Shown here piece by piece: positions 224 through 2,973 of a stretch of 5,168 bases of DNA. Below the pieces are notes generated by a model. The model saw nothing but the letters and a program-made list of their open reading frames with translations. It was not told where the DNA came from and ran no database searches. The translations under genes and the position numbers were made by a program. Source of the DNA: Candidatus Equihabitans merdae (lineage in GTDB: Bacteria > Bacillota > Clostridia > Lachnospirales > Lachnospiraceae); assembly GCA_018065025.1 (NCBI GenBank), contig JAGHUB010000161.1, positions 1 through 5,168 on the forward strand, read 5' to 3'. Numbering within the stretch: the stretch's first letter is position 1; every line of letters starts with the position of its first letter.

Positions 224-252
224 TATATTCACGGAAAATGAAGTAGTTGTCG

Positions 253-378
253 CTGAAGGATCCATGCATGTTCCGTCGCAGGCACGCGTCGTCCCCCTCA
301 ACTAACTCCTTCGGAGTGGATTTTCGGGCTCCTTTGGCGAAATGCCTGCTTGCGGAATCATGCAGGCTCCTCAGCGCA
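253..378. repeat. Structured dispersed repeat, copy 1
   Basis: This non-coding segment of 126 bases is about 90% identical (12 substitutions and one gap by hand alignment) to 2807-2933, in the same orientation. It folds as a long hairpin. The outer stem is built from TGCATG (265-270) with CATGCA (359-364), TTCCG (271-275) with CGGAA (353-357), and GCAGGCA (278-284) with TGCCTGC (343-349). An inner hairpin is ACTCC (305-309) with GGAGT (313-317). The stretches between the stems are nearly invariant, for example CGTCGTCCCCCTCAACTAAC at 288-307 apart from its edge. No transposase or convincing ORF lies within it. It could be a small non-autonomous mobile element or a structured intergenic RNA/DNA element. 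It sits between the binding-protein terminator and the rqcP promoter. Confidence 0.85.
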
Positions 379-414
379 AAAAGAAGAACCGACTTCTTAA
401 GAAATCAGTTCTTC
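378..414 (-). terminator. Intrinsic terminator of the ABC transporter operon
   Basis: A nearly perfect inverted repeat covers 383-414 with its centre at 398/399. On the minus-strand RNA the two non-identical positions become U-G wobbles, whereas on the plus strand they would be C-A mismatches, so it is built for minus-strand transcription. It is followed by TTTTT (378-382). It starts about 28 bases after the TAA of the binding-protein gene. Confidence 0.8.
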
Positions 415-442: not shown

Positions 443-835
443 TTATTCAGCTTCTGTGTAAAGAACACCAAGTTCAGAGATTGTGCCGTCTTCAAGCATC
501 TTTTCGATGGAAGCGTTGATCTTGTCCAGCAGTTCTTTGTTGCCCTTCTGAACAGCGATGGCATATTCTTCAGCTTCGAAGGCTTCCGGATCTTCTACGA
601 TAACGAGACCTTCGTTGTCGCTGACATACTTCTGAGCTGTAGCGGAGTCGATAACGACGACATCGCACTTACCGTTTACCAGTTCCATAACAGCTTCTGT
701 GCCCTTCTTGAAGGCCTGGTAGTCATAACCCAGATCCTGGACACAAACTTCACCGGTGTAACCCTGGATGACGCGAATTTCTTTGCCTTCCATGTCGGAA
801 GCCTTGGCGATGTCGGAACCTTCCTTAACGATCAT
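443..835 (-). CDS. Binding-protein C-terminal half, in the shifted frame (130 residues)
   Basis: This open frame carries lobe 2: MIVKEGSDI (first residues), the IQGYTGEV turn (23-30), and VVIDSATAQ (60-68), whose Asp63 matches the family's ligand amino-group contact. It ends with a C-terminal helix region reaching TEAE. Its ATG overlaps the TGA of the upstream half as ATGA, an arrangement that permits translational coupling, but there is no Shine-Dalgarno sequence before it. If made, it would have no signal peptide and would stay in the cytoplasm. It is most simply read as the displaced second half of the gene. Confidence 0.65.
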   Translation of the reverse strand: MIVKEGSDIAKASDMEGKEIRVIQGYTGEVCVQDLGYDYQAFKKGTEAVMELVNGKCDVVVIDSATAQKYVSDNEGLVIVEDPEAFEAEEYAIAVQKGNKELLDKINASIEKMLEDGTISELGVLYTEAE

Positions 836-1206
836 AACTGTGTGGCTGTGTAGTAAGGTGTTGAGAAATCAACGGCTTCAGCACGTTCTTCTGTGACTGT
901 CATACCGGCGATTGTTGCGTCGATCTGACCATTCTGCAGAGCAACGATCAGGGAGTCGAATTCCATGTTGGAGATTTCAGCTTCCATACCATTGTCTTCA
1001 GCGATCTGCTTAGCGATAGCAATATCGATACCATCGAATTCACCGATGACGCCTTCTTTTGTAACGAATTCGAAGGGCGGGAATTCAGCGTTTGTACCAA
1101 AAACGATCTTGTTATCAGCTGATTCTTTCTTACCGCAAGCGACAAGTGTTGTCATCATCATGGCACCAACCAGGACGAGTGACAGGATTTTAACTGCTTT
1201 TTTCAT
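832..1206 (-). CDS. Binding-protein N-terminal half as it would be translated (124 residues)
   Basis: This is the actual open frame upstream of the frameshift. It begins with a lipoprotein signal: MKK, a hydrophobic core, and the lipobox LVAC with Cys24 as lipidation site. Lobe 1 follows with GTNAEFPPFEF (residues 37-47), a GEFDGIDIAIAKQIAE segment (55-70) and the signature AGMTVTEER (100-108), whose Arg108 corresponds to the arginine that holds the ligand carboxylate in this family. It ends PYYTATQL at a premature TGA, where the family normally crosses into lobe 2. On its own it lacks the second lobe and is unlikely to bind ligand. Confidence 0.7.
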   Translation of the reverse strand: MKKAVKILSLVLVGAMMMTTLVACGKKESADNKIVFGTNAEFPPFEFVTKEGVIGEFDGIDIAIAKQIAEDNGMEAEISNMEFDSLIVALQNGQIDATIAGMTVTEERAEAVDFSTPYYTATQL

Positions 1207-2766: not shown

Positions 2767-2806
2767 CACATCAATATAAAAAAGAAGCCAGAATACTCAT
2801 CGTATA

Positions 2807-2933
2807 CTGAAGAAGCCTTGCATGTTCCGCCGCAGACACGCGTCGTCCCCCTCAACTAACCCCTTTCGGGGTGGTTTTTCGGGCTCCTTTGGCGAATTGT
2901 CTGCTTGCGGAATCATGCAGGCTCCACAACGCA
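2807..2933. repeat. Structured dispersed repeat, copy 2
   Basis: This 127-base partner of 253-378 has the same orientation. The outer stem pairs AGCC (2814-2817) with GGCT (2920-2923), TGCATG (2819-2824) with CATGCA (2914-2919), TTCCG (2825-2829) with CGGAA (2908-2912), and GCAGACA (2832-2838) with TGTCTGC (2898-2904). The inner hairpin is ACCCC (2859-2863) with GGGGT (2868-2872). Against copy 1, a G-C pair in the outer stem has become A-T and a T-A pair in the inner hairpin has become C-G, so both partners changed together. On the minus strand the inner loop is GAAA, a GNRA-type tetraloop. It lies between the dehydrogenase terminator and the transporter promoter. Confidence 0.85.
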
Positions 2934-2940
2934 TACAAAC

Positions 2941-2973
2941 GAAGAAAAGCTCCCCGGATTTTCCGGGGAGCTT
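2941..2973 (-). terminator. Intrinsic terminator of the alcohol dehydrogenase gene
   Basis: An 11-bp GC-rich stem, AAGCTCCCCGG (2947-2957) with CCGGGGAGCTT (2963-2973), closes a 5-base loop. On the minus strand it is followed directly by a T-rich tract (TTTTCTTC). It begins 22 bases beyond the dehydrogenase stop codon. Confidence 0.9.

Follow-up and report, generated by a model that had tools for sequence, protein, structure and literature searches.

The window, that is, the whole stretch of 5,168 nt that was analysed, is one contig of the Candidatus Equihabitans merdae genome (G000), a 1.86 Mb draft of 447 contigs that is 98% complete. It contains two same-orientation copies of a non-coding hairpin repeat (between 253 and 2933), which flank a transporter operon with solute-binding, ATPase and permease genes, and both copies are located directly behind a terminator-like hairpin (Table 1). 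The solute-binding gene (443-1206, minus strand) is split into two overlapping frames, 443-835 and 832-1206, each of them matching part of SBP_bac_3, which reflects a frameshift or an assembly error. In G014 and G021 the alcohol dehydrogenase and S4-domain genes adjoin each other and are element-free between them, in the place where G000 carries the transporter operon, and the repeats may have helped to bring this operon in.

A first-pass annotation of this DNA had described 253-378 and 2807-2933 as copies of a structured repeat, counting 12 substitutions and one gap between them and two compensatory changes in their stems. Global alignment gave the same count (the gap being of 1 nt), and the bases are as named (G282/C345 against A2836/T2900, and T307/A315 against C2861/G2870), both pairs being located in stems of the predicted folds. 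Of the extent given there, the repeat itself is real, but the hairpins are somewhat wider by local complementarity, reaching about as far as listed in Table 1; such complementarity extents give the element a length of about 95-215 nt. When the two copies were folded on both strands, all four folds were more stable than every one of 200 dinucleotide shuffles of each (z -3.9 to -6.1).

Table 1. Positions of the two element copies, their parts and the neighbouring hairpins in the window.
Feature	Position	Strand	Basis
Element copy 1, whole hairpin with arms	247..379	-	Complementarity extent and family match
Copy 1, inner part of the outer stem, GCAGGCA/TGCCTGC (278-284 with 343-349), including G282-C345, and the enclosed part	278..349	-	Predicted fold and copy alignment
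Copy 1, conserved loop strand GGACGAC	288..294	-	Read from sequence; conserved across copies
Copy 1, P2 3' strand GGG	295..297	-	Covariation
Copy 1, apical hairpin, including pair T307-A315	305..317	-	Predicted fold and copy alignment
Copy 1, P2 5' strand CCC, partner 295-297	326..328	-	Covariation
Copy 1, conserved loop strand CAAAGGAG	329..336	-	Read from sequence; conserved across copies
Copy 1, P1b 5' strand CGC, partner 285-287	337..339	-	Helix paired in 68.9% of alignment cells
Terminator-like hairpin following the solute-binding gene and immediately preceding copy 1	383..414	-	Hairpin position
Element copy 2, whole hairpin with arms	2796..2943	-	Complementarity extent and family match; outermost pairs weak
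Copy 2, conserved loop strand GGACGAC	2842..2848	-	Read from sequence; conserved across copies
Copy 2, conserved loop strand CAAAGGAG	2884..2891	-	Read from sequence; conserved across copies
Terminator-like hairpin following the alcohol dehydrogenase gene and immediately preceding copy 2	2947..2973	-	Hairpin position

Both repeats belong to a scattered, multi-copy family of non-coding hairpins present in several related bacteria. A DNA search of G000 gave 14 matches, truncated pieces included, and among 40 relatives DNA search gave a match in G014 only. A covariance model built from ten sequences (R1, E cut-off 0.01) matched 10 of the 42 genomes of the genus, namely G016 (41 matches), G014 (16), G044 (13), G000 (11), G042 (6), G021 (4), G053 (3) and G009, G006 and G024 (one each). 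The weak matches in G006 and G024 were not family members by reading and were left out, which leaves convincing copies in 8 of the 42 species, with up to 41 matches per genome, and none in the other 34. Among 392 genomes of the order, R1 found G000 and one weak match that does not resemble a family member on reading and was not counted. A second model (R2), built from 15 hand-chosen sequences, matched 8 of 397 genomes of the taxonomic family: G000, G016, G498 (2 copies, best E 4e-16), G628 (7), G452 (1), G614 (1) and two marginal ones that by reading are not members, the element thus being present in four species of other genera. The weak model matches read and not counted were those in G006, G024, G126, G605 and G679. 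The large genome searches score few candidates per genome, so that these copy counts are lower bounds, and each species is represented by one genome, mostly a draft. Further copies do therefore exist in the host and its relatives, where the first-pass annotation had suggested that they be sought. Rfam, also named there, gave no match to the element at the gathering score, either in the window or in 22 loci of the element, and a permissive search of 200-420 gave weak matches only, mostly at the terminator. Known ribozymes were considered and set aside, with no Rfam match. One pattern scan of viral contigs gave no match in phages, and an exact 20-mer found in Ameyamaea by a scan of genome contigs is a single match at about chance level. 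No publication on the element was seen in the literature searched, and the microbiome candidate-RNA lists (PMC8040213) may contain it.

The minus strand gives the best reading of the conserved loop. In this direction the element is built, from the outside inwards, of the arms, a 3-bp helix (P1b), an internal loop with the strands CAAAGGAG and GGACGAC, of which G016 and G021 have variants, and a helix of three pairs (P2, YCY/RGR), inside which GAA faces UGA and is followed by one more pair and by an apical hairpin of varying length. From the 74 cores collected, some of them truncated or partial, we set aside one unmatched core and 15 long-form cores (G042 and G044), in which GAA/UGA is replaced, by reading, by fully pairing GGAG/CUCC. 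The remaining 58, which are related copies and not independent events, have at the first P2 pair C-G 38 times, T-A 19 times, T-G once and C-A never, at the second C-G in all 58, at the third C-G 49 and T-A 9 times, and at the pair beyond the GA motif G-C 39 and A-T 19 times. In an alignment of 15 hand-chosen sequences (A3), 89.4% of the cells were paired (shuffles, 74.3 ± 2.2) and the covariation score was 0.392 (shuffles, 0.165 ± 0.028), neither value being reached by any of 500 shuffles; the number of further pair types was not above that in shuffles (440 of 500). P1b is paired in 68.9% of the A3 cells, and there is covariation in helices on both sides of the conserved loop (P1b and P2). The stems of the element covary, and the folded shape is likely to be under selection because the stem letters vary between copies and still pair, while the unpaired core is constant. 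The earlier reading as a selected structure rather than decaying junk is thus strongly supported by the covariation of P2 and of the pair at the GA motif in 58 of the 74 cores, together with the absence of equal scores among the 500 shuffles. Of the three identities offered in that reading, an uncharacterised structured RNA family, in line with the Rfam result, is the best. We also considered a kink-turn in P2 and rejected it, because the supposed tandem-GA base pairs with a covarying C or T; GAA/UGA inside a continuous helix fits better.

The arms are often copy-specific and yet complementary. When the arms were exchanged between copies (73 of the 74 cores, one being at a contig end), the mean energy of own arms was far below that of swapped arms in G044 (-44.7 vs -22.0 kcal/mol), G042 (-42.2 vs -22.1), G053 (-36.1 vs -14.7) and G000 (-44.0 vs -27.1), with a smaller gap in G016 (-43.4 vs -31.7) and G014 (-44.2 vs -36.2) and nearly equal values in G021 (-41.9 vs -40.9), whose arms are alike. 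In G000 some copies have arms in common and others have unrelated arms around the same core, and in G628, G452 and G498 every locus has its own, unique arms, which are nearly perfect and about 20-39 bp long. In 66 copies, 8 others being left out as truncated or partial, the inner 35 nt of the arms contain 22 G-T and 12 A-C pairs, an excess of G-T that is not significant as it stands (p 0.12); 8 of the 12 A-C pairs are one shared G014 site, and when this is counted once the numbers become 22 and 5 (p 0.0015). Leaving out G014 and G021 gives 19 to 0, and at 60 nt, with all copies, the counts are 42 to 33, the excess fading outward. The excess of G-T in the inner arms gives a weak hint that the folding molecule is RNA of the CAAAGGAG (minus) strand. 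Two other observations concern the shape of single copies. Partial tandem copies at four G014 loci (L016, L019, L020 and L021) start at CC|AAAGGAG, a recurrent breakpoint, and include the 3' arm and the flank that belong to the locus in question; and in L215 (G042:C89), a copy that the models missed, the apical part is much enlarged and the palindromic arms are long.

Neighbouring genes were called with a custom codon-usage gene caller in stretches that contained 67 cores, including 15 of the 41 G016 matches. These cores represent 60 distinct loci, 51 of them with both neighbours, 8 at contig edges and 1 overlapping a predicted gene. Among the 51, 18 lie between convergent genes, 31 between codirectional ones (18 sense and 13 antisense, no sense bias, p 0.47) and only 2 between divergent genes (convergent vs divergent, p 0.0004), so that 49 are behind at least one gene. 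Insertion always behind terminators, the arrangement of both window copies, was rejected as a rule, a terminator-like site pointing at the element being located before only 8 of the 67 copies. Pre-existing terminator loops as a general target fit the single copies L061 and L244, the arms of which resemble an intrinsic terminator, but not the five G042 sites described below. Locus L244 also carries a SAM riboswitch (L244:22-121, 75 bits) that is unrelated to the element.

Between G042 and G044, orthologous stretches share about 80-84% identity, and a comparison of these stretches revealed turnover. At the L117 site of G044 the core and arms are absent in G042; of six further G044 loci searched in G042, two had no match and four were found with both flanks, none of the four with the element. 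In total, five G044 copies, arms included, are absent at the orthologous sites of G042, an assembly that is 69% complete. The gap at L109 is clean; the left flank of L120 matches over no more than 54 nt, and the intergenic sequence of L113 and L116 fails to align. We infer that the five absences come from insertion rather than deletion, two events that the sites by themselves cannot tell apart, being also too diverged to reveal any target site duplication. Nesting was found as well: on contig C35 of G000 (L010, C35:134-360) one element is enclosed by the arms of another, L006 is contained in the second member of a tandem pair of hairpin repeats, and L116 and L120 are centred between inverted REP-like motifs. 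This second palindromic repeat (GGGGACGGTTCTCTTTGG) is near or around the element at L116, L120, L118, L113 and L109, that is, within 200 nt of 5 of the 13 G044 copies, against 0.095 expected per searched stretch from the rest of the loci (p 0.004, uncorrected for the motif being perhaps mostly intergenic); near the G042 copies it was found in none of 6.

We looked for an enzyme that could move the element in the eight carrier genomes, which are drafts, by seeking Y1 transposases and reverse transcriptases, and found neither in all of them. The Y1 transposase (PF01797) is absent in five (G000, G009, G021, G044 and G053) and present in G014, G016 and G042, and the reverse transcriptase (PF00078), which a retroelement such as a group II intron would need, is absent in six and gives a single match in each of G009 and G014. 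As far as draft genomes allow, neither is therefore likely to be the common mover. As Y1 is missing from the genome of the window itself and from four other carriers, and as reading of the copies revealed no constant GT(A/G)G head (GTAG or GTGG) beside a short palindrome, the REP or IS200 option of the first-pass annotation is not supported in the form in which it was put. An autonomous copy with a gene in its apical loop was also sought with a half-core pattern, which gave four sites outside the model matches, none with a gene; on reading, two were truncated copies, one had an enlarged apex and one was probably a chance match.

The element can be compared with several known systems. The repeats bcr1-bcr18 of the Bacillus cereus group are dispersed and intergenic, some of them MITE-like, and bcr10 and bcr18 have conserved RNA structure and are part of UTR transcripts (PMC3446304). 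Our element resembles them, by description and not by sequence, in being dispersed and intergenic in a Firmicute-type host, and differs from them as described in its free stems around a constant internal loop, its copy-specific arms and its nesting in palindromes (PMC3446304). Like the GTAG-type REPs, which are short, have a GT(A/G)G head and are moved by RAYT/Y1 transposases, it is palindromic, extragenic and present in many copies, but it is about 95-215 nt long and headless, and Y1 is missing from five of its eight carriers (PMC2817692). In the CGTC-tagged REPs a stem of 8-9 bp closes a loop of 4-5 nt, and the tag is located at an unpaired end on one side; they share with our element the location between unidirectional and convergent genes, the lack of a dedicated transposase and a CGTC, which the plus strand of the element reads inside the core, although in this case it is internal to a long hairpin and the arms are longer (PMC3733652). 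Insertion into palindromic repeats is also known for insertion sequences that target REPs, such as ISPpu9 (PMC8450116) and IS1397 (PMC2817692), which carry a transposase gene, unlike the element copies read, in which no gene was seen. By analogy, the element would work like the bcr1 and REP repeats, yet it lacks those REP features that were tested, and no Rfam family matches it.

On balance, we think that this dispersed hairpin, with covarying stems around a constant unpaired core, is probably a mobile element similar to REP and bcr1, which is predicted to move in trans through recognition of its fold. Its mobility is well supported, and the conserved centre, the free stems, the scarcity between divergent genes, the turnover and the nesting all fit a mobile element recognised by fold. 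The main rival is an RNA element that acts in place at 3' ends, as a terminator, an mRNA-end stabiliser or a protein-binding hairpin for the adjacent genes, in which selection would keep the fold and the spread would be incidental. The location behind a gene at 49 of 51 loci speaks for it, as do the terminator-like arms of L061 and L244, the apical hairpins of G628 (L239, L246, L249 and L252), which are terminator-like with an A-tract and a T-tract and differ in their letters in each copy, and the ordinary terminator-like hairpin that G456 has instead at the L249 site. Nevertheless, we find it rather unlikely in view of the lack of sense bias, the absence of core and arms at the five G042 sites examined, the separate terminator-like hairpin already present before both window copies and the 34 of 42 genus genomes that carry no convincing copy.

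Arms perfected by a mutational process, such as inverted duplication at insertion or template switching, would not require selection on arm complementarity. The near-perfect, locus-unique arms of G628, G452 and G498 and the partial tandem duplications that begin at or beside the hairpin in G014, G053 and L249 are consistent with such a process, which however leaves unexplained the covariation of P2 and P1b beside the conserved loop, and the G042 sites have, by reading, neither a hairpin nor an obvious single arm; we regard it as improbable. A classical MITE, mobilised by a DNA transposase that acts on its terminal inverted repeats and similar to the miniature transposon proposed by the first-pass annotation, is in our opinion very improbable. 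The arms common to copies in G000 would agree with it, as would the outer ends GTTACWGTTCACAC common to many of 27 aligned G016 copies, a feature of G016 only among the carriers, but elsewhere the outer ends vary between species and between copies in G044, G042, G053 and G628, conservation across species peaking in the middle and reaching its minimum at the ends, and no autonomous relative was seen among the half-core sites read.

If the hairpin is a mobile element recognised by its fold, the form recognised would be the folded minus-strand molecule, more likely RNA than single-stranded DNA, and the putative machinery would read the loop CAAAGGAG/GGACGAC and put new copies at hairpins and at the ends of genes. 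The strand, the enzyme and the function are all inferred here. Tentatively, it could even represent a new class, a mobile element that folds as RNA, homes to palindrome tips, be they those of terminators, of REP-like hairpins or of its own kin, is recognised through the conserved asymmetric internal loop, is moved by neither a Y1 transposase nor a reverse transcriptase and has its arms renewed at each site, a proposal that we hold as doubtful.

Small palindromic repeats that have no dedicated transposase still pose an open problem, as stated for the CGTC repeats (PMC3733652). The search for the mover of such repeats is narrowed by a family that covaries strongly, whose copies differ in position between close relatives and several of whose carriers lack Y1 transposases or reverse transcriptases. 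Furthermore, because within single genomes the stems change freely and the internal loop does not, this loop is usable directly as bait for whatever reads it.
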